Shown: one piece after another, positions 13,201-56,365 of the stretch
How positions within the stretch are numbered: the stretch's first letter is position 1
Layout: each line of letters begins with the position of its first letter
Assembly: GCA_016712865.1 (NCBI GenBank)
Contig: JADJQH010000008.1
Span: forward strand, 682,001-746,000
Reading direction: 5' to 3'
Source: Dokdonella sp.
Lineage (GTDB): Bacteria; Pseudomonadota; Gammaproteobacteria; Xanthomonadales; Rhodanobacteraceae
Length of the DNA stretch: 64,000 bases
The notes under the pieces: model-generated
What the model was told of the DNA's origin: nothing
Database searches by the model: none
The model's input: only the letters and a program-made list of their open reading frames with translations
Program-made: the position numbers and the translations under genes

Positions 13201-16200
13201 GGCGTGGAGTTTGCCGAAGCGCCGAGCGCGGGCCTGACGGTGACGGGCATCGTGGCCGGACCGGTGCCGCCAGGCTCGAATGCGGGCACCTGCACGGTGA
13301 CCGGCTGCACGGGCATCACGGTGGGTGCGGGCGAGACGCTCAGCTACACGGTGAGTGCGACGGTGGAGAACCCGCTGACGCAGACGGTGTACACGAACCT
13401 GATCACGCCGACGGGCGGCACCTGCGCGCCGGGCGCGTGTGAGGTGGATACGCCGACGGCGGGCAATGTGTCGATGACGAAGGTGTTGGCCTCGGGCGGT
13501 CCGACCGCGGAGGCGGGCGAGACGCTGACCTACACGGTGACGCTGACGAACAGTGGCGGCAGCGCGGCGACGGGCGTGGAGTTTGCCGAAGCGCCGAGCG
13601 CGGGCCTGACGGTGACGGGCATCGTGGCCGGACCGGTGCCGCCAGGCTCGAATGCGGGCACCTGCACGGTGACCGGCTGCACGGGCATCACGGTGGGTGC
13701 GGGCGAGACGCTCAGCTACACGGTGAGTGCGACGGTGGAGAACCCGCTGACGCAGACGGTGTACACGAACCTGATCACGCCGACGGGCGGCACCTGCGCG
13801 CCGGGCGCGTGTGAGGTGGATACGCCGACGGCGGGCAATGTGTCGATGACGAAGGTGTTGGCCTCGGGCGGTCCGACCGCGGAGGCGGGCGAGACGCTGA
13901 CCTACACGGTGACGCTGACGAACAGTGGCGGCAGCGCGGCGACGGGCGTGGAGTTTGCCGAAGCGCCGAGCGCGGGCCTGACGGTGACGGGCATCGTGGC
14001 CGGACCGGTGCCGCCAGGCTCGAATGCGGGCACCTGCACGGTGACCGGCTGCACGGGCATCACGGTGGGTGCGGGCGAGACGCTCAGCTACACGGTGAGT
14101 GCGACGGTGGAGAACCCGCTGACGCAGACGGTGTACACGAACCTGATCACGCCGACGGGCGGCACCTGCGCGCCGGGCGCGTGTGAGGTGGATACGCCGA
14201 CGGCGGGCAATGTGTCGATGACGAAGGTGTTGGCCTCGGGCGGTCCGACCGCGGAGGCGGGCGAGACGCTGACCTACACGGTGACGCTGACGAACAGTGG
14301 CGGCAGCGCGGCGACGGGCGTGGAGTTTGCCGAAGCGCCGAGCGCGGGCCTGACGGTGACGGGCATCGTGGCCGGACCGGTGCCGCCAGGCTCGAATGCG
14401 GGCACCTGCACGGTGACCGGCTGCACGGGCATCACGGTGGGTGCGGGCGAGACGCTCAGCTACACGGTGAGTGCGACGGTGGAGAACCCGCTGACGCAGA
14501 CGGTGTACACGAACCTGATCACGCCGACGGGCGGCACCTGCGCGCCGGGCGCGTGTGAGGTGGATACGCCGACGGCGGGCAATGTGTCGATGACGAAGGT
14601 GTTGGCCTCGGGCGGTCCGACCGCGGAGGCGGGCGAGACGCTGACCTACACGGTGACGCTGACGAACAGTGGCGGCAGCGCGGCGACGGGCGTGGAGTTT
14701 GCCGAAGCGCCGAGCGCGGGCCTGACGGTGACGGGCATCGTGGCCGGACCGGTGCCGCCAGGCTCGAATGCGGGCACCTGCACGGTGACCGGCTGCACGG
14801 GCATCACGGTGGGTGCGGGCGAGACGCTCAGCTACACGGTGAGTGCGACGGTGGAGAACCCGCTGACGCAGACGGTGTACACGAACCTGATCACGCCGAC
14901 GGGCGGCACCTGCGCGCCGGGCGCGTGTGAGGTGGATACGCCGACGGCGGGCAATGTGTCGATGACGAAGGTGTTGGCCTCGGGCGGTCCGACCGCGGAG
15001 GCGGGCGAGACGCTGACCTACACGGTGACGCTGACGAACAGTGGCGGCAGCGCGGCGACGGGCGTGGAGTTTGCCGAAGCGCCGAGCGCGGGCCTGACGG
15101 TGACGGGCATCGTGGCCGGACCGGTGCCGCCAGGCTCGAATGCGGGCACCTGCACGGTGACCGGCTGCACGGGCATCACGGTGGGTGCGGGCGAGACGCT
15201 CAGCTACACGGTGAGTGCGACGGTGGAGAACCCGCTGACGCAGACGGTGTACACGAACCTGATCACGCCGACGGGCGGCACCTGCGCGCCGGGCGCGTGT
15301 GAGGTGGATACGCCGACGGCGGGCAATGTGTCGATGACGAAGGTGTTGGCCTCGGGCGGTCCGACCGCGGAGGCGGGCGAGACGCTGACCTACACGGTGA
15401 CGCTGACGAACAGTGGCGGCAGCGCGGCGACGGGCGTGGAGTTTGCCGAAGCGCCGAGCGCGGGCCTGACGGTGACGGGCATCGTGGCCGGACCGGTGCC
15501 GCCAGGCTCGAATGCGGGCACCTGCACGGTGACCGGCTGCACGGGCATCACGGTGGGTGCGGGCGAGACGCTCAGCTACACGGTGAGTGCGACGGTGGAG
15601 AACCCGCTGACGCAGACGGTGTACACGAACCTGATCACGCCGACGGGCGGCACCTGCGCGCCGGGCGCGTGTGAGGTGGATACGCCGACGGCGGGCAATG
15701 TGTCGATGACGAAGGTGTTGGCCTCGGGCGGTCCGACCGCGGAGGCGGGCGAGACGCTGACCTACACGGTGACGCTGACGAACAGTGGCGGCAGCGCGGC
15801 GACGGGCGTGGAGTTTGCCGAAGCGCCGAGCGCGGGCCTGACGGTGACGGGCATCGTGGCCGGACCGGTGCCGCCAGGCTCGAATGCGGGCACCTGCACG
15901 GTGACCGGCTGCACGGGCATCACGGTGGGTGCGGGCGAGACGCTCAGCTACACGGTGAGTGCGACGGTGGAGAACCCGCTGACGCAGACGGTGTACACGA
16001 ACCTGATCACGCCGACGGGCGGCACCTGCGCGCCGGGCGCGTGTGAGGTGGATACGCCGACGGCTGCGAACGTCAGCTTGGTCAAGACATTGACGGCCGA
16101 GAACGGAACAGTGGCGGGTGTCGCTGAGCCGGGTGAAACCTTGACCTACACGATCACGCTGACCAACAACGGTGGCGTGAACGCGAATGGTGTCGGTATT

Positions 16201-17739
16201 ACTGATGTGCTGGATCCGAATGTCGGCTTCGTGAGTGCCGACAACGGGGGCGTGTTTGGTGCCGGTTCGGTGACCTGGACGGGCTTGACGGTCAATGCCG
16301 GTGGCAATCTGGTGCTGACCGTGCAGACGCAGGTTGCCGATCCGATTCCCGCTGGCGTGACGCAGATCCTGAACCTGGTTCATGTCACCGGCTCGACACC
16401 GCCTGCATGTCCGCCGGGCGGGCCGCAGTGCGTCATCACGCCGACCCTGGCCAATCTTGCCGTGAACAAGGTTCTGTCGGGCGAGAGCATCACTGCTGAC
16501 GGTATCGCCGAGCCAGGTGAGGTACTTACCTACACGATCACGGTGAGCAATGCCGGTGGTACGGTGGCGCTGAACACGATCATCAATGAAGTGGTGCCGC
16601 AGAACACGACCTTCGTTGCCGACTCGCCCAACATCTGGGTGGGTTGCGCGGATGGAGCGGCTGCAGGTACCGCATGTGACACGATCGTGGACGTGCCGGC
16701 GCAATCGGGCGGCACGCCAGGGACGATCAGCGTGGACTTCATGGTGCTTGTCGATGATCCGCTGGCGGTGGGCGTAACCTCGATCTTCAACGCGGTCGCA
16801 CTCAACGATGGGACGCCGCCGGATTGCGTGGCCTTGCCGACCAGCCCAGGCTGCGCGGTGGTGCCGACTGCGAACCTGCGTCTGACCAAGGTGGTGGATT
16901 CGGTTGCGCCGACTGGACCGGGTCGTTACCGCGTGACTTACCGCATCGATATCGTGAACCTGGGAGGTTCGGCAGGCAGCTACACGCTGACCGACACCTT
17001 TGGATTCCCGGGCAGCGGCGTGGTGTACACCGGCAACGCACGGGTCACGACGGCGGGTGGCACGATCAATCCGGCCCTGGTCGGCGGGGAGTACGTGCCA
17101 AACAATGGCACGATGGTGCAGATCTCCGACAACAGCGTCGTCTTGGCCATCGGTGCGACGCACACCTACTCGGTGAGCGTGCCGATCGGCGTGCAACCGG
17201 GCAATCTGCAGGATGGAACCTGCACCGGCGCGACCGGCAACGGCCTGTACAACGCGGCTTCGATCACCGGCACGGTGGTGCTCGACAGCGCGGCGTGTGC
17301 ACCGGTGGGCAGTGACGTGCCGCTGATCCATCTGGTCAAGACCGTTACACTCGGGCAGGATGCCGATGGCGACAACTACGGTGATGTTGGCGATGTGCTG
17401 GAGTACGAATTCACGATCAGCAACCCGGGTGCCTTGCCCTTGACCCCGGTGCAGTTGTTCGATCCGCGACTGCAGAGTCTGCAGTGCGATCCGCTGACGA
17501 TCGGAGGCCAGCCGTTGCGCGTGATTCCGGGAGACGAGCTGTACCGCGACGAGTTCGATGTGGCCTTGGGCGGTGCCTTGCAGCCGGGTGATGAAGTGCA
17601 CTGCACCGGCACCTACACGCTGACCGCAGCCGATGTATTGCGCCGCCAGGTGGTCAATACTGCGACGGCGACGGGCACCGCAGTGGGTGGTCCGTCGGTC
17701 TCTTCGGTCTCCACGGCAATTTTCACGATGTTCCCCTGA
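4285..17739 (+). CDS. Giant secreted DUF11-repeat protein, main part with the 30-copy array
   Basis: The frame is open from 4216. The first possible initiation codon is a TTG at 4285 with no ribosome site and no signal peptide, so this is very likely not a separate gene but the continuation of the CDS that starts at 1552. Layout: two DUF11-type domains (to about 4911), 30 copies of a 124-residue DUF11 unit (4912-16064), then four or so divergent DUF11-like domains (16065-17739). Each unit carries YTVTLTNSGG and YTVSATV strands and four Cys (GTCTVTGC and GGTCAPGAC), suggesting disulfides formed after export. The protein ends FTMFP with no membrane anchor, cell-wall signal or autotransporter barrel. 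A DUF11 partner gene starts 10 bp downstream. DUF11 proteins are thought to be surface or adhesive; the exact role is unknown. Confidence 0.8.
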   Translation: MYVDNVRFTCTGTTAAIRDNVPAGANPDLINGIPANLVVGGDNFVLDAGQAMTVTYQVTINPGVGTFWQITNTASASSTEVPTPVSGSATVNVFVPTPALNTVKTLSGNADGDGSGTVTPGDVLSYLVTVTNTGNIPLTNVVVTDSLITPTGGTTPCASVPVGGTCTLTGTYLVTAGDVTIGSITNTGTGDSNETPPDDDILVTPVAGTVSMTKVLASGGPTAEAGETLTYTVTLTNSGGSAATGVEFAEAPSAGLTVTGIVAGPVPPGSNAGTCTVTGCTGITVGAGETLSYTVSATVENPLTQTVYTNLITPTGGTCAPGACEVDTPTAGNVSMTKVLASGGPTAEAGETLTYTVTLTNSGGSAATGVEFAEAPSAGLTVTGIVAGPVPPGSNAGTCTVTGCTGITVGAGETLSYTVSATVENPLTQTVYTNLITPTGGTCAPGACEVDTPTAGNVSMTKVLASGGPTAEAGETLTYTVTLTNSGGSAATGVEFAEAPSAGLTVTGIVAGPVPPGSNAGTCTVTGCTGITVGAGETLSYTVSATVENPLTQTVYTNLITPTGGTCAPGACEVDTPTAGNVSMTKVLASGGPTAEAGETLTYTVTLTNSGGSAATGVEFAEAPSAGLTVTGIVAGPVPPGSNAGTCTVTGCTGITVGAGETLSYTVSATVENPLTQTVYTNLITPTGGTCAPGACEVDTPTAGNVSMTKVLASGGPTAEAGETLTYTVTLTNSGGSAATGVEFAEAPSAGLTVTGIVAGPVPPGSNAGTCTVTGCTGITVGAGETLSYTVSATVENPLTQTVYTNLITPTGGTCAPGACEVDTPTAGNVSMTKVLASGGPTAEAGETLTYTVTLTNSGGSAATGVEFAEAPSAGLTVTGIVAGPVPPGSNAGTCTVTGCTGITVGAGETLSYTVSATVENPLTQTVYTNLITPTGGTCAPGACEVDTPTAGNVSMTKVLASGGPTAEAGETLTYTVTLTNSGGSAATGVEFAEAPSAGLTVTGIVAGPVPPGSNAGTCTVTGCTGITVGAGETLSYTVSATVENPLTQTVYTNLITPTGGTCAPGACEVDTPTAGNVSMTKVLASGGPTAEAGETLTYTVTLTNSGGSAATGVEFAEAPSAGLTVTGIVAGPVPPGSNAGTCTVTGCTGITVGAGETLSYTVSATVENPLTQTVYTNLITPTGGTCAPGACEVDTPTAGNVSMTKVLASGGPTAEAGETLTYTVTLTNSGGSAATGVEFAEAPSAGLTVTGIVAGPVPPGSNAGTCTVTGCTGITVGAGETLSYTVSATVENPLTQTVYTNLITPTGGTCAPGACEVDTPTAGNVSMTKVLASGGPTAEAGETLTYTVTLTNSGGSAATGVEFAEAPSAGLTVTGIVAGPVPPGSNAGTCTVTGCTGITVGAGETLSYTVSATVENPLTQTVYTNLITPTGGTCAPGACEVDTPTAGNVSMTKVLASGGPTAEAGETLTYTVTLTNSGGSAATGVEFAEAPSAGLTVTGIVAGPVPPGSNAGTCTVTGCTGITVGAGETLSYTVSATVENPLTQTVYTNLITPTGGTCAPGACEVDTPTAGNVSMTKVLASGGPTAEAGETLTYTVTLTNSGGSAATGVEFAEAPSAGLTVTGIVAGPVPPGSNAGTCTVTGCTGITVGAGETLSYTVSATVENPLTQTVYTNLITPTGGTCAPGACEVDTPTAGNVSMTKVLASGGPTAEAGETLTYTVTLTNSGGSAATGVEFAEAPSAGLTVTGIVAGPVPPGSNAGTCTVTGCTGITVGAGETLSYTVSATVENPLTQTVYTNLITPTGGTCAPGACEVDTPTAGNVSMTKVLASGGPTAEAGETLTYTVTLTNSGGSAATGVEFAEAPSAGLTVTGIVAGPVPPGSNAGTCTVTGCTGITVGAGETLSYTVSATVENPLTQTVYTNLITPTGGTCAPGACEVDTPTAGNVSMTKVLASGGPTAEAGETLTYTVTLTNSGGSAATGVEFAEAPSAGLTVTGIVAGPVPPGSNAGTCTVTGCTGITVGAGETLSYTVSATVENPLTQTVYTNLITPTGGTCAPGACEVDTPTAGNVSMTKVLASGGPTAEAGETLTYTVTLTNSGGSAATGVEFAEAPSAGLTVTGIVAGPVPPGSNAGTCTVTGCTGITVGAGETLSYTVSATVENPLTQTVYTNLITPTGGTCAPGACEVDTPTAGNVSMTKVLASGGPTAEAGETLTYTVTLTNSGGSAATGVEFAEAPSAGLTVTGIVAGPVPPGSNAGTCTVTGCTGITVGAGETLSYTVSATVENPLTQTVYTNLITPTGGTCAPGACEVDTPTAGNVSMTKVLASGGPTAEAGETLTYTVTLTNSGGSAATGVEFAEAPSAGLTVTGIVAGPVPPGSNAGTCTVTGCTGITVGAGETLSYTVSATVENPLTQTVYTNLITPTGGTCAPGACEVDTPTAGNVSMTKVLASGGPTAEAGETLTYTVTLTNSGGSAATGVEFAEAPSAGLTVTGIVAGPVPPGSNAGTCTVTGCTGITVGAGETLSYTVSATVENPLTQTVYTNLITPTGGTCAPGACEVDTPTAGNVSMTKVLASGGPTAEAGETLTYTVTLTNSGGSAATGVEFAEAPSAGLTVTGIVAGPVPPGSNAGTCTVTGCTGITVGAGETLSYTVSATVENPLTQTVYTNLITPTGGTCAPGACEVDTPTAGNVSMTKVLASGGPTAEAGETLTYTVTLTNSGGSAATGVEFAEAPSAGLTVTGIVAGPVPPGSNAGTCTVTGCTGITVGAGETLSYTVSATVENPLTQTVYTNLITPTGGTCAPGACEVDTPTAGNVSMTKVLASGGPTAEAGETLTYTVTLTNSGGSAATGVEFAEAPSAGLTVTGIVAGPVPPGSNAGTCTVTGCTGITVGAGETLSYTVSATVENPLTQTVYTNLITPTGGTCAPGACEVDTPTAGNVSMTKVLASGGPTAEAGETLTYTVTLTNSGGSAATGVEFAEAPSAGLTVTGIVAGPVPPGSNAGTCTVTGCTGITVGAGETLSYTVSATVENPLTQTVYTNLITPTGGTCAPGACEVDTPTAGNVSMTKVLASGGPTAEAGETLTYTVTLTNSGGSAATGVEFAEAPSAGLTVTGIVAGPVPPGSNAGTCTVTGCTGITVGAGETLSYTVSATVENPLTQTVYTNLITPTGGTCAPGACEVDTPTAGNVSMTKVLASGGPTAEAGETLTYTVTLTNSGGSAATGVEFAEAPSAGLTVTGIVAGPVPPGSNAGTCTVTGCTGITVGAGETLSYTVSATVENPLTQTVYTNLITPTGGTCAPGACEVDTPTAGNVSMTKVLASGGPTAEAGETLTYTVTLTNSGGSAATGVEFAEAPSAGLTVTGIVAGPVPPGSNAGTCTVTGCTGITVGAGETLSYTVSATVENPLTQTVYTNLITPTGGTCAPGACEVDTPTAGNVSMTKVLASGGPTAEAGETLTYTVTLTNSGGSAATGVEFAEAPSAGLTVTGIVAGPVPPGSNAGTCTVTGCTGITVGAGETLSYTVSATVENPLTQTVYTNLITPTGGTCAPGACEVDTPTAGNVSMTKVLASGGPTAEAGETLTYTVTLTNSGGSAATGVEFAEAPSAGLTVTGIVAGPVPPGSNAGTCTVTGCTGITVGAGETLSYTVSATVENPLTQTVYTNLITPTGGTCAPGACEVDTPTAGNVSMTKVLASGGPTAEAGETLTYTVTLTNSGGSAATGVEFAEAPSAGLTVTGIVAGPVPPGSNAGTCTVTGCTGITVGAGETLSYTVSATVENPLTQTVYTNLITPTGGTCAPGACEVDTPTAGNVSMTKVLASGGPTAEAGETLTYTVTLTNSGGSAATGVEFAEAPSAGLTVTGIVAGPVPPGSNAGTCTVTGCTGITVGAGETLSYTVSATVENPLTQTVYTNLITPTGGTCAPGACEVDTPTAANVSLVKTLTAENGTVAGVAEPGETLTYTITLTNNGGVNANGVGITDVLDPNVGFVSADNGGVFGAGSVTWTGLTVNAGGNLVLTVQTQVADPIPAGVTQILNLVHVTGSTPPACPPGGPQCVITPTLANLAVNKVLSGESITADGIAEPGEVLTYTITVSNAGGTVALNTIINEVVPQNTTFVADSPNIWVGCADGAAAGTACDTIVDVPAQSGGTPGTISVDFMVLVDDPLAVGVTSIFNAVALNDGTPPDCVALPTSPGCAVVPTANLRLTKVVDSVAPTGPGRYRVTYRIDIVNLGGSAGSYTLTDTFGFPGSGVVYTGNARVTTAGGTINPALVGGEYVPNNGTMVQISDNSVVLAIGATHTYSVSVPIGVQPGNLQDGTCTGATGNGLYNAASITGTVVLDSAACAPVGSDVPLIHLVKTVTLGQDADGDNYGDVGDVLEYEFTISNPGALPLTPVQLFDPRLQSLQCDPLTIGGQPLRVIPGDELYRDEFDVALGGALQPGDEVHCTGTYTLTAADVLRRQVVNTATATGTAVGGPSVSSVSTAIFTMFP
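4912..16064 (+). repeat. Tandem array, 30 copies of a 372-bp coding unit
   Basis: The unit starts recur at 4912, 5284, 5656 ... 15700, every 372 bp (124 codons). (15700-4912)/372 = 29 exactly, giving 30 copies, the last diverging after 16064. Because five units equal 31 printed lines, the lines can be compared directly, and every one I compared is identical at the base level; all 30 translated units are identical too. The first copy differs only in its preceding bases (GGCACG instead of GGCAAT) and the last fades into a diverged DUF11 copy. The period is a multiple of three, so gain or loss of copies keeps the frame. Identity including synonymous sites means recent expansion, active homogenisation or an assembly effect. 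Confidence 0.97.
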
Positions 17740-17749
17740 GGACAGGCAG

Positions 17750-19018
17750 ATGAATGGACTATTGAAATCGACTTGCGCCTTCAAGCTGTTTGCCGCGGTG
17801 TCCATGGCGTTCGTGACGCTGCAGGCAAGCGCGGGAACGCTGAACGTCACCCAGGCGCCCGACACGGCGCCTGGCTCTGGCAATACGCATGCTGGCCAGT
17901 TCGGATTGGTCGTCAGCAACATCGGTGCCGGGGATCTCTTCGACGTGCGCCTTGTTGCCGATCGCGAACACCTGGTCGACTGCGGCATGCAGACCGTGCA
18001 GGGTGGTGAGTTCGCGCCGATTGCCCTCGCATCGGGCGACAGCCTGCATTGCACCGTTTATCCGCTGGCTCAGTCCAACCTGCGCAATGCGAGCGTCGTC
18101 GCGCTGGCGCGCGACGTGGATGGCAAACGCGTGCAGCGCACGGTCAATCTGATGCGGCCGATGGGAGCGCCGGGGCAGGGCATTGCCGTGCTTGCTGGAG
18201 GCGGCATTCACGTCGATGGCAACACGGATGGTTTGCTGCAGGTTGGCGAGTCGATCAATTACCACTACACGGTACTCAATGTGGGTTCGCTTGCCTTGTC
18301 CGCACTGGCGGTTGTCGACTTTGATGGTGCGGTGACTTGTCCAAGCACTCTCGCCGTCGGCGCGTCGATGGTCTGCACGCGGGTTCATGCGATCACGGCT
18401 ACCGAAGCCGGCGCAGGCCTGGTCTTCAACCAGGTTGACCTCGCTGGCGTCGATGCGAATAGCGATCCGGTGATCGCCGGTGATTTCGTGGTCACGCAGA
18501 ATCTGGGCGGTGATGCCGGCATTCGCGTATTCAAGAGCCCCTCGTTGTTCGACGATGTCGACAACAGTGGCGTTGCCAGTATCGGTGATGTGCTGCGTTA
18601 CACCTTCGTGATCAAGAATGACAATGCGCAGACCCTGACATCGGTGAATCTGGTCGAGCCGGATCCCAGCCTGATCGACACACCAATCACCTGCAATCCG
18701 ACCACGCTCAATGGCCAACCGTTTGCTGCACTCGGCAGCGCAGTCCTGCTGTCCAACGATGTCGAGTTGTGCCAGGCCGACCACACGGTCACCGCAGCGG
18801 ATGCCGCATCGGGCTCGGCGGACAATCTCGCCGAAGCGACTGCACAGCCAGGTATCGGCGGACCGGTACAAGGCACGGGGGCTTCGGCCGTGGTGATTCC
18901 GGCCGCGCCAGCCGGGCCTGTCCTAGAAGTTGATGCCAACGCCAACTGGGCACTGCTGTTGCTGTTGGCTGCAATGGTGCTGGTTGCCGGCAGGTCGATG
19001 AAGCTGCGTCAAATCTGA
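17750..19018 (+). CDS. DUF11-like secreted protein with C-terminal membrane segment
   Basis: 422 residues. ATG at 17750 follows AGGACAG, only 10 bp after the giant gene's stop, so the two are probably co-transcribed. The N-terminus is a signal peptide (cleavage near ASA, residue 29). The body has DUF11-like beta domains (GESINYHYTVLNVGS, GDVLRYTFVIKND) with paired Cys. The C-terminus has Trp, a hydrophobic run (ALLLLLAAMVLVAG) and a short basic tail (RSMKLRQI), the architecture of IPTL-CTERM and similar sorting signals, though without a clear IPTL motif. Being anchored while the giant protein is not, it may hold or assemble the giant protein; this is inference from context only. Confidence 0.75.
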   Translation: MNGLLKSTCAFKLFAAVSMAFVTLQASAGTLNVTQAPDTAPGSGNTHAGQFGLVVSNIGAGDLFDVRLVADREHLVDCGMQTVQGGEFAPIALASGDSLHCTVYPLAQSNLRNASVVALARDVDGKRVQRTVNLMRPMGAPGQGIAVLAGGGIHVDGNTDGLLQVGESINYHYTVLNVGSLALSALAVVDFDGAVTCPSTLAVGASMVCTRVHAITATEAGAGLVFNQVDLAGVDANSDPVIAGDFVVTQNLGGDAGIRVFKSPSLFDDVDNSGVASIGDVLRYTFVIKNDNAQTLTSVNLVEPDPSLIDTPITCNPTTLNGQPFAALGSAVLLSNDVELCQADHTVTAADAASGSADNLAEATAQPGIGGPVQGTGASAVVIPAAPAGPVLEVDANANWALLLLLAAMVLVAGRSMKLRQI

Positions 19019-19232: not shown

Positions 19233-20504
19233 ATGAAGCGATTTGCCAACGTCCTGGTTGCCGTGCTGGCAGCCCAAAGCGCTATCGCGAGCGCAGCGAC
19301 CTTCACCGTTACCCTAGAAGCCGATCTGATCGACCTGATACCCGGCAATGGTTTTTGCAGCGTGCTGCCTCAAGCTGGCGCCGGCCCGTGTTCCCTGCGC
19401 GCAGCGGTTATCGAGGCGAATGCGCTTGCCGGAACCGACACGATTGCGCTCCAGGCCGGACAGGTTCTTCAACTTGCGCTGGATGGTGCAGCCGAAGACA
19501 ACGCCTACACGGGAGATCTGGACATCAGGGACGACACCCTGATCTTGTTCATCGCCTCCGGTGAGCGCCCGATCGTTGACGCCAATGGTTTGGAGCGGGC
19601 GTTCCAGGTCATCTCGGGAAACCTGACCTTGCTGGGGTTCGATATCACCGGGGGCGACGCTCCGGCAAACGGGGAAGCCTCCGGCGGGGCCATCTACATC
19701 GGCAGCGGAGCAGGAATCGTGCAACTGTCGCTGCTGCGCCTGTATGACAACTTGGCCGATGCGGGCGGTGGCATCTACAACAATGGCGACAGCACCACGG
19801 TGAGTTCCTGCGAGTTTCGCCACAATCTGGTTTCCACGCCCAACGTAGTGAGTGGCGGTGCGGCCATCTACAACCGCGGGGAGTTGGATGTCGACCACAG
19901 CGCCATTTGGGATAGCGTGGCCGAAGGCGATTTCCCGGCGACGGCGATCATCAACCTGACTTCCGATGGGCGAACCCTGAGCATTCGCAACAGCGTCATC
20001 GCGGAAAACCGTATCGGCATCACCAACCAGCAGGATTCACCGCTGGTTCTCGTCAACGCGACCCTGGCGGGCAATTCCCAGATCGGCCTCAACCTGTCCG
20101 GTGACGGCAGCCAGCTGCAGATGCGCAATACCGTGATCGCCAACAATGGAACACTGGATTGCGTGATTGCGGATGGTGCAACGCTCAATGTCGATCGCTA
20201 CAACATGGACTCGGACAACACCTGCGAACTGGCCAGCGGAACGTCGAATTTTCCTGGCGTCGAACCCTACCTGACGCCCCTGCGGCAACGCGACGGATTC
20301 ACCCCGGCGAGCTGGCCGCTCACGATCAGCCCACTGATCGATTCCGGGCACCCGGTCATCGGCGCCATAGGGTGCGAAGCGGACGATCAGCTGTTCAATG
20401 AACGCCCGGTGGATTTTGACGGCAACGGCAATGCGCGGTGCGACATCGGATCGATCGAGATGAGCAGCGATGTCATCTTCTTCGACCCAATCGAGCGGTA
20501 TTGA
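19233..20504 (+). CDS. Secreted beta-helix protein of the CSLREA type
   Basis: 423 residues from ATG 19233, chosen because it starts exactly at a signal peptide (MKRF..AAQSAIASAA); upstream in-frame starts add unlikely residues. Right after the signal peptide comes CSLRAAVIEAN, the motif of the CSLREA N-terminal domain found in exported beta-helix proteins. Then come parallel beta-helix rungs rich in G, N and D (GGAIYIGSGAGIV, GGGIYNNGDSTTVSS, RNTVIANNGTLDC) and an ending CDIGSIE typical of these choice-of-anchor proteins. The last residues, DVIFFDPIERY, look like a degenerate form of the C-terminal D-x-I-F-x-D-G-F motif of other secreted proteins in this window. The role is unknown; it is probably extracellular. 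Confidence 0.8.
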   Translation: MKRFANVLVAVLAAQSAIASAATFTVTLEADLIDLIPGNGFCSVLPQAGAGPCSLRAAVIEANALAGTDTIALQAGQVLQLALDGAAEDNAYTGDLDIRDDTLILFIASGERPIVDANGLERAFQVISGNLTLLGFDITGGDAPANGEASGGAIYIGSGAGIVQLSLLRLYDNLADAGGGIYNNGDSTTVSSCEFRHNLVSTPNVVSGGAAIYNRGELDVDHSAIWDSVAEGDFPATAIINLTSDGRTLSIRNSVIAENRIGITNQQDSPLVLVNATLAGNSQIGLNLSGDGSQLQMRNTVIANNGTLDCVIADGATLNVDRYNMDSDNTCELASGTSNFPGVEPYLTPLRQRDGFTPASWPLTISPLIDSGHPVIGAIGCEADDQLFNERPVDFDGNGNARCDIGSIEMSSDVIFFDPIERY

Positions 20505-20638
20505 GGCAATGCGCGGTGGGTATCAGCATCGCCGTGCCGGGTGACCGTGCCTCTGCGGACAGCGTGCGCATTTCGTACGCCGCGCGGTGCAATAATCAGC
20601 CGGTGGTCCGGGGAATCCGGATTGCCGGAGTCGTGCCC

Positions 20639-21199
20639 ATGGCGAATGAACCTGCGGATCTGGCGGATCAGCTCGCGAAGGAGGGCTATGGCGAAGCCGG
20701 GGAATTGCGCGAGCTGCTACCGGTCGTTTACCTCGACCTGAAACGCATTGCGCATTCCCAGCTGTTTCGTCGCACACCGGGGGCAAGCTTGTCCACGACT
20801 GCCCTTGTGCACGAAACATGGATCAAGCTTGCCCGGGGAAATTCCGCCTCCATCCACGGCCGCGCCCATTTCATGGCGCTGTGTGCCCGCGTAATGCGGC
20901 AGATCCTGATTGATCGGTCGCGCGCCCGCGCGGCGGAAAAGCGCGGCAGTGAAATGCTGCACCAGAAGGATGGAGTTGCCGAGACGGAACCAGCGCAGGC
21001 TGAAGCGCAATTGCGCTTTGTCAATGGTCTCGATGCGCTGACTGCTGTTGATCCGCGCCTGGCCCGGATCATCGAACAGCATTGGCTGATCGGCCTGGGC
21101 GTCGAGGAGCTGGCGGATCTGCATGGCGTCGGCGTGCGCATGATTCAACTTGAGCTCAAGCGCGCCCGGGCCTGGGTGGGTGAGCTGCTTGCGCCATGA
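20639..21199 (+). CDS. ECF-type sigma factor paired with a Ser/Thr kinase
   Basis: 186 residues from ATG 20639. Region 2 is clear (STTALVHETWIKLARG, then HFMALCARVMRQILIDRSR, residues about 58-98). Region 4 is present but its recognition helix is unusual (VGVRMIQLELKRARAW instead of the usual S-x-x-T-V-K-R). The ALVHE and LIDRSRARAAEKRG segments fit the 'X6' family of ECF-like sigma factors (TIGR02999-like), commonly encoded next to a protein kinase in Lysobacterales and Planctomycetes. The stop overlaps the kinase start by 4 bp (ATGA), so translation is coupled. No anti-sigma factor is nearby, so the kinase is the likely controller. Targets are unknown; the flanking secreted-protein genes are candidates. 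Confidence 0.85.
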   Translation: MANEPADLADQLAKEGYGEAGELRELLPVVYLDLKRIAHSQLFRRTPGASLSTTALVHETWIKLARGNSASIHGRAHFMALCARVMRQILIDRSRARAAEKRGSEMLHQKDGVAETEPAQAEAQLRFVNGLDALTAVDPRLARIIEQHWLIGLGVEELADLHGVGVRMIQLELKRARAWVGELLAP

Positions 21200-23745
21200 A
21201 CGAACTCTTTGCAGTCGGCCAGTTCACCGAGCTGGATGCGATGTTGCGGCGGGCGCTCAGTCTCGAGGGATTTGAAAGGGCGAGCTTCGTGGAAAGTGTC
21301 GAGCGCGTGCAGCCGCAGCTTGTCGCACACTTGCGTGCGATGCTGGAGCTTGCCGAATCCGATGCCGATCCGTTGGCCGGCATCTTCGATGATCGACTGT
21401 GGGCGGAGGTTGCCGACGATCCCGCTGCGGGCCAGCGTTTCGGCTCCTGGCGGGCACGCGGCACCATTGCCCACGGCGGCATGGCACGCGTGCTGTACGC
21501 CGAACGTGCCGTAGGTGGTTTCGAGCAGTTCGCCGCGATCAAATGCCTGTGGCCTGGGCTGGCGACGCCGGATCTGGTTGCCCGGTTCGAGCAGGAGCGG
21601 CAGATCCTGGCGCGCCTGGACGATCCGCGCATCGCCCGATTGCTGGATGGTGGCATCCGTGCCGATGGCCTTCCCTGGCTTGCGCTCGAATATGTTGCCG
21701 GCCACACGATTGACGCGCATTGCGATGCCCGGCAGCTTGGCGTCGATGCACGCCTGGACCTGTGGGATGAAGTCGCCATCGCCGTTGGAACTGCGCATCG
21801 CCGTCTCATCGTGCATCGTGACCTGAAGCCATCCAATGTCCTCGTCAACGATCGGGGAGCCATCAAGCTGCTCGACTTCGGAATTGCCAAGTTGCTCGAT
21901 GCGGAAGGGTTTCCGTCAGCCACGCCGCCGACCCGCATCGAGGCGCGCGCGCTCACCCGCGAATACGCCAGCCCCGAGCAACTTCGTGGTGATTCGATCA
22001 CGACGGCCAGCGACGTCTACCAGTTGGGATTGCTCTTGCATGTGTTGCTGTGCGGCGTGCGGCCATTCCGTGGCCAACGGCGACGCGAAGCCGATGACGA
22101 AGCCATGTCGCCTTCGTTTGCTGCGCGCCATGACGCGGATGCGTCGCTGCATGCGGAGCAGCGGGCCACCACACCCGCTCGTCTCCAACGACGTTTGCGC
22201 GGCGACCTTGATGCGATAGCTCAGCGCGCGCTTTCGATTTCTCCTGCGGATCGCTATGGTTCGGTCGATGCCCTGCGCGAGGATGTTGATCGCTGGCGTC
22301 GGGCCATGCCGGTCCGTGCCCGTCGCATTGGAGCCTTGCGGCGCGGCGCCAAGTGGCTGCGGCGCCACACCTGGCTCGCCGTTGGCAGCGCCTGTGTGCT
22401 GGTCCTGACACTCACCTATGCCACCAATACGTTCAGGCAGGCACAATCCCTGGCCCGGGAGGCCGGAATCAACCGCACCGTGCGCGACTATCTCGTGGGT
22501 TGGTTCCAGGCCGCCGATCCCGGCGGCACGCAGGGGCATGATCCGCGTGCCAGCGAAATGCTGGCGGATGGCTTGGCCCGCGTGCAGCGGGATGTGACGA
22601 TCCAGCCCGAGTTGAAGGCGGAAATGCTCAACATCATTGGCGAAATCCACCTCGCGCGAGGAGAAATGTCCAAGGCTGAGCCTGTGCTGCGTGAGGCGAA
22701 TGCATTGTTTCGGCAGCTGCCCTCGGTCGAGGCCCGATGGCGCGGATCCAGTACCACCAGCCTTGCCTTGCTGCTGCACTACAGCGGACGCTATGCGGAA
22801 TCCGCTGCGATGTACCGGCAGGCACTCGACGAACGCATCGCCGCGGTTGGATCGAAAGCCTATTGGACCATCGTCACCCGGCAAGGCTACGCCGATGTGC
22901 TGCACAGTCTCGGCCTGTACCGGGAGGCCATCGTTCAACTCGACCTGGCGCTGGAAGATGCGCGGGAAACGTTGGGTGGCGCCGATGCCCTGGTAGCTGT
23001 GCTTGAAAGCGGCCTGGCCAATATCGATCGCGACCTTGGTCGACAGCGTGAGTCGGCAGAACGCTATGCCAAGGCACTGGCGGTGCAGATGGCTGCGCAT
23101 GGCGAGACGCATCCGAACACGGCTTCGAGTCGGTTGGGCCTGGGGCGCTTGCTGCTGGATCAGGGGCTGTATGCCGATGCCGCAACGCAGATCGACGCGG
23201 CCTTCGTGACATTCCAGAAAACCCGGGGCATGACCACGCCATCGACAGCCTATTGCGAGCGCGTGGTCGCCCAACTCCAGGAAGCAAACGGTGACCTCGA
23301 GGGCGCCGCGGGCCGACTGCAGCGACTGGTGGAATCCATGCGCGAGCAATTGCCGCCCGGACACATCATCACTGCGTATCTGGAAATCGATCTTGGTTTC
23401 GTCGAACTTGAGCGCGGCAATGATCGCCTTGCCGCAGATTGGTTTGCAGAAGCCGGGCGCATCTTCGACGCGATCCAGCCCGAAGGTCATCCGCGCCGCA
23501 TCGAGATCCTGCTGGGACAGGGACTGGTTGCTGCACGTCAATCCGATCCGCCCGGGGCGCAGACGCTGTTCGATGCCGCAAGGGCGCAGGCCGTTCGCCA
23601 ACTGGATGCGGAACATCCGTTATTGGCTGCGATCGACCTCGCCCAGGGAAAGCCCGGGAGTGCGTCCACCCGCAAGCCTGGCCTGTTCCGCTTGCGTGTG
23701 AGCCGCGCGCTGGCGTCGTCAGCATCGCCCGCGGCGACGCACTGA
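21196..23745 (+). CDS. Transmembrane Ser/Thr protein kinase with TPR-like C-terminal region
   Basis: 849 residues. The kinase domain spans about residues 83-370, with a Gly-rich loop (GTIAHGGMARV), catalytic-type Lys116 (AAIKCLW), HRDLKPSN (Asp209), DFG (227-229) and ASPEQ in the activation segment. All catalytic residues are present. One membrane helix follows (about 392-410). The remaining ~440 residues are helical repeats of the TPR type (for example EAIVQLDLALEDARETLGG, SAERYAKALAVQ), presumably on the other side of the membrane as a sensor. The gene overlaps the ECF sigma gene by 4 bp. In such pairs the kinase is thought to phosphorylate the sigma factor's regulatory surface; that role is inferred here. 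Confidence 0.92.
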   Translation: MNELFAVGQFTELDAMLRRALSLEGFERASFVESVERVQPQLVAHLRAMLELAESDADPLAGIFDDRLWAEVADDPAAGQRFGSWRARGTIAHGGMARVLYAERAVGGFEQFAAIKCLWPGLATPDLVARFEQERQILARLDDPRIARLLDGGIRADGLPWLALEYVAGHTIDAHCDARQLGVDARLDLWDEVAIAVGTAHRRLIVHRDLKPSNVLVNDRGAIKLLDFGIAKLLDAEGFPSATPPTRIEARALTREYASPEQLRGDSITTASDVYQLGLLLHVLLCGVRPFRGQRRREADDEAMSPSFAARHDADASLHAEQRATTPARLQRRLRGDLDAIAQRALSISPADRYGSVDALREDVDRWRRAMPVRARRIGALRRGAKWLRRHTWLAVGSACVLVLTLTYATNTFRQAQSLAREAGINRTVRDYLVGWFQAADPGGTQGHDPRASEMLADGLARVQRDVTIQPELKAEMLNIIGEIHLARGEMSKAEPVLREANALFRQLPSVEARWRGSSTTSLALLLHYSGRYAESAAMYRQALDERIAAVGSKAYWTIVTRQGYADVLHSLGLYREAIVQLDLALEDARETLGGADALVAVLESGLANIDRDLGRQRESAERYAKALAVQMAAHGETHPNTASSRLGLGRLLLDQGLYADAATQIDAAFVTFQKTRGMTTPSTAYCERVVAQLQEANGDLEGAAGRLQRLVESMREQLPPGHIITAYLEIDLGFVELERGNDRLAADWFAEAGRIFDAIQPEGHPRRIEILLGQGLVAARQSDPPGAQTLFDAARAQAVRQLDAEHPLLAAIDLAQGKPGSASTRKPGLFRLRVSRALASSASPAATH

Positions 23746-23822: not shown

Positions 23823-26537
23823 ATGCGCAAGATCGTTTTCGTCATGGTCGCAGCGGGCGCGCTGGTTGCGCTCGCGACCCAGATTCACGATTGGCACGCC
23901 GAGGTCGAAGGCGAGGAAGACGCCAGGGGCCCCTGGCTCAAGCCAATGAAGGGTGATTTTTGGGCGCACCGCGTGGCCTATCCGACCATGCATTTCAGCC
24001 CCTCCTGGTATGCGGATGCGCGACCGGCGGACCGCGCCATGGCTTCGGCAGTGCCTGCTGGCGAGAAGAGCTACCGGCGAAACGCCAACTCGACCCTGAG
24101 CCTTGATCCGCAAGCCTGGACATTTCTCGGGCCTCTGCCTTTGCTCAATTCAGGCGTGCAGGTGTCCGGTCGAACCAATGTCATTGCCGTGGATCCGCGT
24201 GGTCCGGATATCAATGGACTGCATACCGTTTATGCGGCGTCGGATGGTGGTGGCTTGTGGAAATCCACCAACTGCTGCAGCGCATCGACAACCTGGCGCA
24301 ACGTCACCGATGCCCCGGAAATCCAGAGCATCGCCATCGGCGACATCTTCATCGAGCCAAGCAATCCGGATGTCATCTATCTTGGTACCGGAGACCTGCG
24401 CTTCGGCTCGTTCTCGTTCGGCTCGTCGGGGATCCTGAAAAGTGTTGATCAGGGTGAAAACTGGACCGTGCTCGGGGCCGATGTCTTCAATCCGTTCTAT
24501 CCGCCTTCGGTTGGCCTAGGTTTTCCGCAGTACCAGGCCGTGGGCAAGGTGCGAACCAGTCCGCATGATGCGGACACCATCATCGTCGGCACCAAGACCG
24601 GATTGTTTGTTTCCAACAATGCCGGCACGGATTGGACCGGGCCCTGCTTTACCAATGCATTCAGCAGCCAGCGCCAGGACATCACCGGGCTGATCGTGCA
24701 GGATGCCGGAGGCGGAGTCGCCCGATTGATCACTGCGGTGGGGACGCGAGGCTTGCCCACGCCGGTACAACCGGATCTGGCCAATCTCGGCGCCAATGGC
24801 GTCTACAGCGCCATCCTGCCAGCCACCGGTTGTCCGGCGACCGGTGATTGGACCCTGCTCAACAACGGCTGGCCGGCCGGAACCGGAAATGGCGATCCAG
24901 CCGGCAAGAATCTCGGCCGCATCGAGATTGCCGATGCGCCTGGCAATCCGCAGATCCTCTACGCAATGGGTGCAAATGCCACCAACAGCAGCGTGCTCGG
25001 GGTCTGGCGCAGCGATGACGGCGGTGCCAACTGGACACAGCGCACCACCAGTTCGGGCATCCAGTCGGGCGGGTGTTCGAATGCAAGCGGTGGCGGCAGC
25101 CAGATGTGGTACGACGCCGGGCTTACGGTGGACCCGAACAATCCGGAAACCGTCCTGCTCAGTGGCGTTGACCTTTATCGTTCGATCAACGGTGGCACCA
25201 CCTTCCAGGACATCACCTGCGGCTATGGCAATGGCAACGTGCATGTCGACCACCACGCCAGGGCCTTCCTGCCCAATGGCTTTGGCGGCTATGACAGCAA
25301 CAAGCTGCTCAGCGGCAGCGATGGCGGCGTGTTCTACACGGCAAATGCCCAGTTCGGCACAGGCGGTTCGACCACTTCCAATCGCCCCACCTTCATCTCC
25401 CTGAACCAGACCATCGGTTCCATCGAGTTGTACTCCGGCGACATCACTGCGGGGTTTGCAACGGCAGCCAATCCGGGTGCCAGTGCGGGCGCCCAGGACA
25501 ATGGCAGCGAGTATGCGCGTTGGCCCAGCGGCAACCAGGAGCCGGTGCAATGGACCGTGCGCAATGGCGGCGACGGCATCTACACGCGCATCGAGCCAGT
25601 CAATGAACAGCGCTGGTATTACGCCAGCCAGAATGGTGCAGTCGTTGTATCGCAGACCGGACCCGCTGGTGGTACCAGCAATGCCACGCCGGCACAGTCC
25701 GGTTGGGGTGGCGACACCCTCAGCTTTGTGTTTCCGTTCGAGCTGTACCGCTACGGCGAGCTCGATGTTGCCGGCAGTGGATGCAGCACCAACATCGGAT
25801 GCAGTTACATGCTTGGCGGTACCAACCGTGTCTGGGAAACCCTGGAAGGCGGCATCCCGCGCAGCAGCTGGTATCCGAACAGTCCGAACCTGACCAAGAA
25901 CACGCTCGGCAATCGATCCTTCATCAACCAGCTGGCGCATGCGGTGAAGACGCCCAGTGTCGTGATCGTGGGCACCAATGATGGAAATGTGCAGTTCGGC
26001 TACAACCTGAACCAGGGCGTTGCCGATTCGGCGAGCTGGGTCAACCTCACCGATGGCAATGCAGTGTTGCCGAATCGTCCGGTGATGGATGTGGCCATCG
26101 ACGTGGTGGATGCCGGCGATCCCTCGGCGGGTGCGGTGGGTTATGCGGCTCTCGGCGGTTTTGACCAGAACACGCCATCAACGCCCGGGCACGTCTATCA
26201 GGTGACCTGCCAGAACAACTGCACCACATATACCTGGCGCAACGTGAGCGGCGGCTTGCCGAACATCCCGGCCAACGCGGTGGCGGTCAATCCGTTGATT
26301 CCCAACCAGGTGTATGTGGGTACCGACTGGGGCCTGTACTACACGGATGACGTCAGCGCGTCGACGCCGGTCTGGTATCGATTCGAGGGCGGCCTGCCGC
26401 ACGTGATGATCTGGGATATGGCCATCGATCGCGGATTCAGCACATTGGCAATTTTCACCCGCGGACGCGGCGTGTGGGCGTGGCCGCTGCCGAGCGGACC
26501 GGTCGACATCATCTTCCAGGATGGCTTCGACAACTGA
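23823..26537 (+). CDS. Secreted BNR/Vps10-type repeat protein with C-terminal DGFDN motif
   Basis: 904 residues from ATG 23823, preceded by GGGGGAA. A short N-terminal hydrophobic segment (VFVMVAAGALVALA) serves as signal or anchor. The body has recurrent blades with sialidase/Asp-box features: GGGLWKSTN, GILKSVDQGENW, TGLFVSNNAGTDW, GVWRSDDGGANW, DLYRSINGG, WGLYYTDD. These form a beta-propeller of the sortilin/Vps10 or GH74-like kind. No catalytic residues can be assigned, so I do not call it a glycosidase. The extreme C-terminus is VDIIFQDGFDN, shared with two other secreted proteins here. It sits 77 bp after the kinase gene and may be part of the regulated set. Confidence 0.8.
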   Translation: MRKIVFVMVAAGALVALATQIHDWHAEVEGEEDARGPWLKPMKGDFWAHRVAYPTMHFSPSWYADARPADRAMASAVPAGEKSYRRNANSTLSLDPQAWTFLGPLPLLNSGVQVSGRTNVIAVDPRGPDINGLHTVYAASDGGGLWKSTNCCSASTTWRNVTDAPEIQSIAIGDIFIEPSNPDVIYLGTGDLRFGSFSFGSSGILKSVDQGENWTVLGADVFNPFYPPSVGLGFPQYQAVGKVRTSPHDADTIIVGTKTGLFVSNNAGTDWTGPCFTNAFSSQRQDITGLIVQDAGGGVARLITAVGTRGLPTPVQPDLANLGANGVYSAILPATGCPATGDWTLLNNGWPAGTGNGDPAGKNLGRIEIADAPGNPQILYAMGANATNSSVLGVWRSDDGGANWTQRTTSSGIQSGGCSNASGGGSQMWYDAGLTVDPNNPETVLLSGVDLYRSINGGTTFQDITCGYGNGNVHVDHHARAFLPNGFGGYDSNKLLSGSDGGVFYTANAQFGTGGSTTSNRPTFISLNQTIGSIELYSGDITAGFATAANPGASAGAQDNGSEYARWPSGNQEPVQWTVRNGGDGIYTRIEPVNEQRWYYASQNGAVVVSQTGPAGGTSNATPAQSGWGGDTLSFVFPFELYRYGELDVAGSGCSTNIGCSYMLGGTNRVWETLEGGIPRSSWYPNSPNLTKNTLGNRSFINQLAHAVKTPSVVIVGTNDGNVQFGYNLNQGVADSASWVNLTDGNAVLPNRPVMDVAIDVVDAGDPSAGAVGYAALGGFDQNTPSTPGHVYQVTCQNNCTTYTWRNVSGGLPNIPANAVAVNPLIPNQVYVGTDWGLYYTDDVSASTPVWYRFEGGLPHVMIWDMAIDRGFSTLAIFTRGRGVWAWPLPSGPVDIIFQDGFDN

Positions 26538-46896: not shown

Positions 46897-47553
46897 TTAG
46901 GGCGGCAGCGCCGTGCACTCGCCGTCCCCGCCGTCGAAACCATCGCAGAAGATGTCGTTCTGAACCGGCGGGGCGATGGTGATGGCGGAGCCGTCATCTT
47001 CATAGCACCAATCCAGTACCGCCATCGGAAAGCCAATCGGTGCGCTCGTGTTGAGCCGTATCCAGCCATAGTTGAGTAGACCGAGGTTCTCGTTCTGGAA
47101 GCGCGCACCGAGGAATCCCCCGGCAATTCCCGCCTGCCACAACGAGGTATCGCCACCCGCGCCTGCGCGGGTGAATGACGAATCCGGCCCCACCTCGGCA
47201 CCGGCTGCCAGCACGGCGTACTGGTCACCACTGCTGGCCACCCCCGCACCACCGTTGCTCGCTGATCCCCAGTAGAACCGCAGTTGGTTCGGTGGCGTGC
47301 TGGTTTGCTGGGCGTAGGGATCGAAATCAAAGCCCGGCACCTGGCCTTCGCTGAAGCCTGATTCGCCGGTCACGAGGTTGATGTAGAGACCCTCTCCATC
47401 CTGCGGAACGGCGAGATCACGCGGGCCTGAGCAGATGATCGCGGCCGCTGCGCTTGTGCTGTGGGCAACGATGGCCGTGGCCACCAGGAAGCGCAGCGCC
47501 TTGCCACCGCTTCGGCAAATGACCGGTGTCGACACGGCATGAATCCGGGGCAT
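46897..47553 (-). CDS. Secreted protein with C-terminal DGFD motif, unknown function
   Basis: 218 residues from ATG 47553, chosen for the strong ribosome site GGGAGG seven bases upstream; upstream in-frame starts lack one. The signal peptide ends at TSAAAA (about residue 39). The mature protein is beta-rich with Gly/Asn turns ([31 protein letters not shown]). The end reads [22 protein letters not shown], containing the same I-F-x-D-G-F-D string as two other secreted proteins here, but with a 12-residue Cys-containing extension. It lies head-to-head with truA and tail-to-tail with fimV, interrupting a usually compact block. Confidence 0.75.
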
Positions 47554-55081: not shown

Positions 55082-56365
55082 TCAGGGATTCTCGAAGCCG
55101 TCCTGGAATATGACATCACCGTCTGCGTAGGCAACGAATACGCCGCTGCCCCATTCCACCTGGTTGTTGCCCTGCGGATAGAGTCCGGCGATGAAGGCAA
55201 TGTCACCGTGGGCGTTGATTCCTGGTGCGCCGCTGAAAATGGGCCAGCCATTGGGATCATCGACGTGCTGACCGATGCCCGCGATTCCCAGGTCGGTTGC
55301 AACCAGGTCGTCCTTGCCAATCACGCGGCGCAGCGTGGTGCCGTCACCCACATAGATGGCCTGGCCGTTTGCATCGCGGCCACGGAAGGTGACCAGCCCG
55401 TCGTTGTTCATGGCCGGGGCAAAGGAATCGATGGCGCGGATGGTGCCGGCCGCTTCCACGCGGGCAATCTCGGTGGCTTCGACACCCGAGGGCCCCGGGC
55501 TGAAGCGATACACGGCGCGGACGTTGCCGGCATCCAGATTGAGCACCACCGCAACCTGGCCCGCATCGTTGTAGGCCAGCCCGTTGTCGAAGCGTCGATA
55601 GGGCGAGGCCGGATCGGTGGCCTTGTCCACGGCCAGCGTGATGAAGCTGCCGTCGCTGGCAAAGCTGCGGATCTCGTTGTGGTCGAAATCACCGATGCTG
55701 ACCTTGCTGGCGATCAGGCGCTGCGCGTTCATGGCCGGCGTGTAGATGTAGGCGTATGGGCCGGGTTGCACGTTGGCATCGACGATGTGCAGCAATGAGC
55801 TGCCCGCTCCGGTGGAAGCCAGGCCATAACCGGAACCAAGCCCGGCACGATAGCCGATCACGCCCGCGGCATTGATGGAAAGCCCGCTGTATGCCACCGG
55901 AGTGATCGGCAGCGTATTGACGATCTGCGACTGCACGGTGGCGGCATCGAACAGGCGCAGCCGATAATTGGTGCCGTCATCCCAGGTGTAATACGCCACA
56001 TCGCCGTCGGCGTTGATGCTGACATTGGCGGAAATGCCATCGACCGGCGATTCATGCTGGACAACGATGCCGCCAACGCCGTGCGAGCCATGCCAAAGCC
56101 CCGGGCCGGTGTTGCCCTGGTCGCCATTGATGGGAACGATCTGCACGGGAAAGGTGACGATGCGGCTGTCGTTGATGCTGGCCGAGATGCTGTTGAAGGA
56201 TGATCCCGGTGGCAGGTTCCAGCCGGGGTCGTTGACCAGCAGATTGCTGCGCGCCTGCAACTCGACGCTGTGATAGGTCGGCACCGCAGCGGATGCAAGC
56301 GGGCAAGCCAGCGCCAGGGGCACGCAGGCAAAAGCAACTGGGAACGGAATTCTCAGATTGGACAT
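55082..56365 (-). CDS. Secreted beta-propeller-like protein with C-terminal DGFENP
   Basis: 427 residues from ATG 56365, with a signal peptide (cleavage near ASA, about residue 26). The body repeats short segments of the form 'G..SINADGDVAYYTW', 'SINAAGVIGYRAG', 'AYNDAGQVAVVL', 'AMNNDGLVTFRG', 'GINAHGDIAFIAG', each a motif N-x-x-G-x-[VI]-x-[FY], which resembles the NxxGxxxF-type choice-of-anchor repeats of exported proteins. The extreme C-terminus is DGDVIFQDGFENP. No catalytic residues are seen. It lies alone between rapA and a Stealth-type gene on the same strand. Confidence 0.8.
   Translation of the reverse strand: MSNLRIPFPVAFACVPLALACPLASAAVPTYHSVELQARSNLLVNDPGWNLPPGSSFNSISASINDSRIVTFPVQIVPINGDQGNTGPGLWHGSHGVGGIVVQHESPVDGISANVSINADGDVAYYTWDDGTNYRLRLFDAATVQSQIVNTLPITPVAYSGLSINAAGVIGYRAGLGSGYGLASTGAGSSLLHIVDANVQPGPYAYIYTPAMNAQRLIASKVSIGDFDHNEIRSFASDGSFITLAVDKATDPASPYRRFDNGLAYNDAGQVAVVLNLDAGNVRAVYRFSPGPSGVEATEIARVEAAGTIRAIDSFAPAMNNDGLVTFRGRDANGQAIYVGDGTTLRRVIGKDDLVATDLGIAGIGQHVDDPNGWPIFSGAPGINAHGDIAFIAGLYPQGNNQVEWGSGVFVAYADGDVIFQDGFENP

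Follow-up and report, generated by a model that had tools for sequence, protein, structure and literature searches.

In a stretch of 64,000 nucleotides from a Dokdonella sp. genome (contig JADJQH010000008.1, positions 682,001 to 746,000, here C8:682001-746000 and hereafter the window), several secreted-looking proteins that otherwise appear unrelated end in nearly the same residues. The tail has the consensus D-[LIV]-I-F-x-D-G-F-[DE], followed by 0 to about 7 residues, and is ∼9–12 residues long. It behaves as a C-terminal tag: it stands at the ends of unrelated, mostly exported-looking proteins, it is confined to one bacterial order, the Xanthomonadales, in the genomes sampled, and it co-occurs there with a second type II secretion system (T2SS), whose GspC protein has a predicted PDZ domain. 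We propose, at a little under an even chance, that the tail is a linear C-terminal secretion tag for this PDZ-type second T2SS, and it may be the long-sought address label of that system. The wider claim is more tentative still: that this is the first common linear T2SS signal, a nine-residue C-terminal tag that sorts dozens of unrelated folded proteins in one order, has shifted to D-R-F within one genus and, in others, disappeared along with the machine.

We searched DNA for sequences coding I-F-x-D-G-F-[DE] (the strict pattern) and F-x-D-G-F-[DE] (the shorter pattern), with the reversed pattern as a control; G, L, f and g followed by a number denote a genome, locus, family and genus respectively. 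In the genome to which the window belongs, the strict pattern matched 34 times and its reversed control not once, against 49 and two matches for the shorter pattern. Forty-three of the 49 shorter-pattern places were readable (40 in loci and three in the window), and in 35 of these the motif lies no more than 11 residues before the stop codon, once (L022) in an open reading frame (ORF) of only 39 residues. Eight places are not C-terminal (L009, L016, L021, L032, L034, L035, L040 and L052); some of them resemble chance matches, lying in ORFs that look cytosolic, and in L016 the motif follows a signal-peptide-like stretch. When own-genome and order loci were taken together, 96 of 117 distinct strict matches fell within 12 residues of the C-terminus, the remainder being in ORFs shorter than 60 residues (seven), in ORFs open at the end of the locus (three) or elsewhere (11).

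The motif is often the very end of the protein. Among 112 own-genome and order tails, read with a looser motif, it is followed by no residue in 44, by one in 19, by two in 14 and by three in eight, with more in the rest. Across 210 distinct C-terminal hits, a set that includes some chance matches and a subset chosen because a stop follows at once, positions 1, 2, 4, 5, 6 and 7 are mostly I, F, D, G, F and E/D, while the third position is free, with Ala commonest. At L074 and L077 two tag-like motifs stand in tandem at one C-terminus, for example AIFLDGFEGDVIFKNGYD.

The carriers are diverse. After removal of the last 25 residues, the 34 tagged proteins of the own genome fell into 26 groups, and 100 tagged proteins into 66 groups at E 1e-5 (100 of 105 listed proteins were aligned, trimmed to their last 520 residues; five were dropped by eye as likely antisense or repeats). 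A single homologous domain as the source of the tail is thereby ruled out. Family matches among the 100, taken at E 0.001 with curated cut-offs not applied, include reprolysin-like peptidases (up to nine), choice-of-anchor Q (nine), FG-GAP (six), rhombosortase-dependent M36 (five), myxosortase-dependent M36 (four) and rhombotarget A (two), together with polymorphic-membrane-protein-type, cadherin-like and DUF11-type families. ‘Choice-of-anchor’ is what NCBIfam calls domains whose following sorting tag differs from lineage to lineage, so the new tag occupies the position of a sorting tag. The last 50 residues contain no helix-like stretch in any of the 100 proteins. A signal-peptide-like N-terminus, judged by a simple rule and not by a trained predictor, was present in 110 of 135 complete tagged ORFs, compared with 83 of 243 untagged neighbour genes; the tagged ORFs divide into 14/16 from the own genome, 37/46 from the order, 59/69 from public contigs and 0/4 from other orders. 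The original prediction had proposed, from the window alone, a short C-terminal tag on unrelated exported proteins that have no C-terminal membrane anchor, an idea that would fail if the motif were not enriched at the C-termini of such proteins genome-wide or were just the end of one homologous domain. The counts above pass both tests and support the prediction, and the tag may serve in secretion or anchoring.

Five tails compared with NCBIfam and Pfam at E up to 10 matched no tag model, and four whole window proteins gave no match at the tail in the same databases. Motif strings searched in open-licence papers of PubMed Central (PMC) returned only unrelated texts or none, and no paper on sorting signals and T2SS in Xanthomonadales was found there. 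We conclude that the tail is not covered by any model in NCBIfam or Pfam, or by any open-licence PMC paper, that these searches found.

Strict matches occur in 105 of 250 genomes of the order, with up to 55 in a genome. In a phylum sample of 299 genomes, seven of them from the order, 32 have matches, and outside the order there are at most two per genome. Of 28 outside-order places read, six have a stop no more than 12 residues away; four of the six are in ORFs shorter than 70 residues, and none of the four ORFs long enough to test has a signal-peptide-like start. A scan of public genomes for the tag with an immediate stop gave at least 118 stretches; among the matches listed were Marinicella, Dokdonella, Tahibacter, Pseudofulvimonas, Chiayiivirga and unclassified Lysobacterales, and the 80 listed also included other proteobacterial metagenome-assembled genomes and genera such as Flavobacterium and Listeria, which were not checked singly. 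Restriction to the order is therefore true of the genomes sampled and is not proof.

Genus g28 has the second T2SS and zero or near-zero strict counts. At five places read in this genus (L318, L319, L322, L324 and L330) the motif near the stop contains D-R-F, and the low strict counts are resolved by this variant. The pattern was accordingly widened, after the first result had been seen, to I-F-x-D-x-F-[DE] (the general pattern), with which g28 genomes give up to 46 matches and reversed controls 0 or 1. General matches in the tag-poor f1 genomes G060, G074 and G120 (eight read) are not C-terminal, nor are any of the three read of six in G056; these are background.

In addition to the long Xps-like GspD, most tag-bearing genomes encode another, shorter secretin; none is listed for G063. 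GspD itself scored above the cut-off in 66 of 69 genomes, and of 30 tag-bearing genomes only G114 fell below it, where GspD is in fragments. The locus of the second system runs gspC-gspD-gspE, often with gspF next, and usually lies near rhlE-, trxA-, rho- or ftsEX-like genes, these last being named by eye. Gene clusters in the locus as fetched from 19 genomes placed gspC in 14, an rhlE-like gene in 13, gspF in 10 and an ftsX-like gene in eight. In the own genome the system begins at C8:261211, outside the window, and gspF was not recognised in the stretch fetched. NCBIfam names the products GspC, GspD, GspE and GspF, with three of four GspC scores below the model cut-offs. Structure prediction was applied to GspC alone: the AlphaFold model (mean predicted local distance difference test score 71.7) matches the PDZ domains of EpsC (2i4s, 2i6v) and PulC (5hj1), and also the GspC homology region (3oss). 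According to PMC11981180, Xanthomonas XpsC lacks a PDZ fold. G230 has the second T2SS and one match only; on its contig C47 (L301) the PDZ-type gspC and a true rhombosortase gene are ∼80 bases apart, which looks as though one system of C-terminal tags had taken the place of another. G053, a sister of the tag-rich G150, has only the long GspD above the cut-off, no matches and a rhombosortase.

We then compared the distribution of the tag with that of GspC-B, the GspC of the second T2SS. A profile built from 14 GspC sequences was searched in the 250 order genomes; with a cut-off of E 1.3e-34 or better, set after the list had been seen, GspC-B was scored as present in 112, and five f2 genomes with a weaker GspC (∼1e-19 to 1e-29; G061, G243, G175, G249 and G155) were counted as lacking it. 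The main count covers the 176 genomes at least 95% complete, 74 of the 250 falling below that level, and uses the general pattern. Eight or more matches were found in 49 of 65 genomes with GspC-B but in only one of 111 without it, so that GspC-B is present in 49 of the 50 genomes this rich in tags; median counts were 14 and 0 respectively. With all 250 genomes included, the corresponding figures were 78/112 and 8/138. Within families the counts are as follows: in f1, seven genomes with GspC-B have 1–59 matches (median 29) against a maximum of four in 45 without, and in f2, three with it have 0–29 against a maximum of two in 50 without. On a tree built from the long GspD of 65 genomes, five changes in GspC-B are seen, and in five independent pairs, drawn as random pairings, tag-richness follows GspC-B in 4.5 of five on average, with no difference in 0.5. 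The original prediction had looked for a gene whose presence across genomes matches that of the motif; the PDZ-type T2SS emerges as a candidate, but family f8 keeps tags without it.

Several observations weigh against the second T2SS as the reader. With five pairs, the lowest p that a sign test can give is 0.0625, so that 0.05 is out of reach. When pairs are instead chosen to differ in tag-richness, GspC-B follows in 4.5 of eight, with no difference in 3.5, and three rows of the tree (G198, G126 and G225), placed on a very long branch, probably represent a paralogue. The tags that f8 genomes hold without GspC-B are genuinely C-terminal: in G063, 11 of 12 general matches were read, of which four end within three residues of a stop in long ORFs (L430, L432, L433 and L438), two lie in ORFs shorter than 20 residues and five elsewhere, and G122, G171 and G097 have two or three C-terminal tags each. 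Conversely, among the 65 GspC-B genomes at least 95% complete, eight have no more than three matches. The system is thus neither strictly necessary nor sufficient. Tags do not cluster near the T2SS locus (three against 2.1 expected). PDZ-type T2SSs occur elsewhere in gammaproteobacteria, and no tag beyond background was found outside the order in the 299-genome phylum sample. A classical PDZ pocket needs a fixed C-terminus, which 0 to 7 residues after the motif fit poorly. Exosortase also correlates with the tag, more weakly than the T2SS does, so descent alone can link a gene to the tag. Finally, the candidate readers profiled were rhombosortase, exosortase and T2SS parts only, and a gene linked to the T2SS, other than these, is possible as the reader.

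The strongest rival, which we consider possible although doubtful, is that a dedicated and undiscovered enzyme, sortase-like or glycan-attaching, reads the tag at the outer membrane or surface, while the T2SS does no more than transport that cargo, or has been inherited along the same lineages. Enzymes of this sort serve other many-to-one C-terminal tags, as PMC3237569 describes; the f8 tags and the dependence of the link on only about five independent changes fit this explanation, as does the weaker correlation with exosortase-like genes. The known enzymes fare poorly, however. Rhombosortase was above its cut-off in five of 69 genomes, none of which has a strict match, and was rejected as the reader; in the tag-bearing G150 and G148 it scored near the cut-off of 84 bits (80.1 and 73.8). 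Exosortase was found in 26 of 71 genomes, 21 of 36 tag-bearing and five of 35 others, and is absent from 15 tag-bearing genomes, including G000, G110, G150 and G002. G000, G110 and G150 have 43, 59 and 29 general matches without it; exosortase therefore cannot read the tag and was likewise rejected. We also followed the approach of PMC3237569 and looked for a sorting gene adjoining single-tag genes. Across the window and 20 low-count loci that were fetched, one family alone, a kinase, recurred in more than three loci (five), which we read as regulation, and the family in three loci was the tagged proteins themselves; no adjoining sorting gene was found.

It is less likely that the tag is read by widely shared secretion parts, such as the Xps-like T2SS or pseudopilins, with the second T2SS as a mere correlate. 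In favour of this, 65 of 69 genomes yielded a long Xps-like GspD (three probably being the paralogue), and f8 genomes keep their tags with only the Xps-like system. Against it, the tree holds 31 genomes that have a long GspD but lack GspC-B, and 29 of them show at most three matches.

We think it improbable that the tail is a structural β-strand that arose from the opening strand of a jelly-roll-like domain (IFxDxFESG..W, a likeness that we presume), caps a fold or pairs with a partner domain, and has no part in targeting. In its favour, the motif or a close variant follows a signal-peptide-like stretch at L016, L434, L424, L428 and L329, sometimes with SG..W after it, and tails of G104 and G036 run on as SGDTSAW and SGDVSSW. 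Against it, the motif ends proteins of many unrelated families, has no residue after it in 44 of the 112 tails noted above, and comes and goes by lineage. Chance, or a compositional artefact of high-GC coding DNA, may be dismissed: single matches in distant genomes do look like chance, but the reversed controls refute it as a general explanation, genus g41 writes the same tag in AT-rich codons, and the matches are C-terminal.

Recognition by the second T2SS can be pictured as follows. The tail would be a short, linear, non-membrane targeting tag on Sec-exported proteins, which would cross the inner membrane by means of their signal peptides and fold in the periplasm. The exposed tail might then be recognised by the second T2SS of the order, most likely through the PDZ domain of GspC or the N-domains of GspD, and the cargo handed to the secretin for display on the surface or release. 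The T2SS as reader, the GspC PDZ domain as contact and the fate after export are the steps that we infer.

All four tails that the original prediction had named in the window are present; three fit the consensus and one is degenerate. The tag DIIFQDGFDN with its stop (26505..26537, plus strand) ends a BNR/VPS10-like protein, a tagged BNR-repeat protein at 23823..26537 on the plus strand. Its start is likely at codon 23823 (MRKIVFVMVAAGALVALA, signal-peptide-like), chosen by eye, and its matches to the BNR and Sortilin-Vps10 families of Pfam are weak and below the cut-off. On the minus strand, DVIFQDGFENP with its stop (55082..55117) ends an NxxGxxAF choice-of-anchor protein (55082..56365) whose NCBIfam matches are below cut-off (NF045523, 193.6 bits, cut-off 500; TIGR05002, 47.1 bits, cut-off 50). 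Also on the minus strand, NDIFCDGFD is followed by an eleven-residue Cys-containing extension and a stop (46897..46959); the protein (46897..47553) has a signal-peptide-like N-terminus and a start, MPRIHAV..., picked by eye, and no family is assigned to it, NCBIfam and Pfam having given no match at E 0.1. The degenerate tail, DVIFFDPIERY with its stop (20469..20504, plus strand), lies outside the genome-wide consensus and may be a decayed tag. It ends a β-helix choice-of-anchor Q protein (19233..20504, plus strand, start by eye; NCBIfam NF041518, 32.3 bits, cut-off 25), and the choice-of-anchor match stops at residue 420 of the 433-residue ORF, directly before the tail. The three strict matches in the 64 kb window compare with ∼0.6 expected from 34 in 3.75 Mb.

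The window has other features as well. An ECF (extracytoplasmic function) sigma factor and a Ser/Thr kinase with tetratricopeptide repeats occupy 20438–23745, upstream of the tagged BNR gene, the kinase ending at 23745. Members of the kinase cluster also occur in four other tag-bearing loci (L159, L163, L164 and L165), and this proximity perhaps reflects shared regulation. At 17633–19018 is a DUF7507 protein ending in NWALLLLLAAMVLVAGRSMKLRQI, a helix with basic residues; we take this end to resemble IPTL-CTERM-type tags, and the genome may therefore have a membrane-type tag in addition to the new one. A 372-bp unit is repeated in tandem thirty times, with 100% matches, over 4912–16064 and encodes DUF11 repeats within a 4484-residue ORF (4285–17739), with the opposite strand also open (4858–18054). 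Whether the array is real or a product of assembly, repeats this alike imply that it expanded, or underwent gene conversion, very recently.

The way in which the T2SS selects folded cargo is an open question, since no linear sequence is known to be common to its substrates: PMC7949064 reports none shared among them, and PMC11981180 states that no conserved signal is known. If the tail were the signal for the second T2SS, recognition could be tested directly by grafting and deleting the tag, cargo would become predictable from sequence, and a small secretion tag would be available for engineering. Even with another reader, the tail seems to represent a class of C-terminal tag, spread across the order and lacking a membrane helix, that has not been described before.

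The closest parallels are the C-terminal sorting tags. GlyGly-CTERM, a Gly motif, membrane helix and basic residues paired with rhombosortase according to PMC3237569, resembles the new tag in being carried by numerous unrelated exported proteins, T2SS cargo among them, and some tagged families here match rhombosortase-dependent models. Unlike GlyGly-CTERM, the new tag lacks the helix-like stretch, and no rhombosortase above the cut-off was found in the tag-rich genomes searched (that of G150 lies just below). PEP-CTERM, found through phylogenetic profiling (PMC1569441), is likewise many-to-one; the new tag again differs in having no helix, and exosortase is missing from the own genome and 14 more of the 36 tag-bearing genomes. 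The new tag also lacks the helix and the invariant Cys of MYXO-CTERM, the tag read by myxosortase, with Cys only occasional within the motif, although the protein at 55082..56365 shows a relationship, below cut-off, to a family in which the named members bear MYXO-CTERM. The C-terminal domain of the type IX secretion system of Bacteroidota is a non-membrane secretion signal on unrelated surface and secreted proteins, folded and ∼70–100 residues long; the new tag shares its non-membrane, C-terminal character, yet is far shorter and belongs to another phylum. Among T2SSs, GspC-PDZ recognition (EpsC/VesB, OutC) offers a PDZ-bearing GspC with specificity for a subset of cargo. Only some cargo requires the PDZ domain of EpsC, and the determinant in VesB is its immunoglobulin (Ig) fold, according to PMC12369372; the new tag, by contrast, is linear. 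Like T2SS substrates, most tagged ORFs have a signal-peptide-like start, and nearly all tag-bearing genomes have GspD. The new tag is many-to-one, like the CTERM tags, yet without the defining features of theirs that were tested, the helix and a matching rhombosortase or exosortase.

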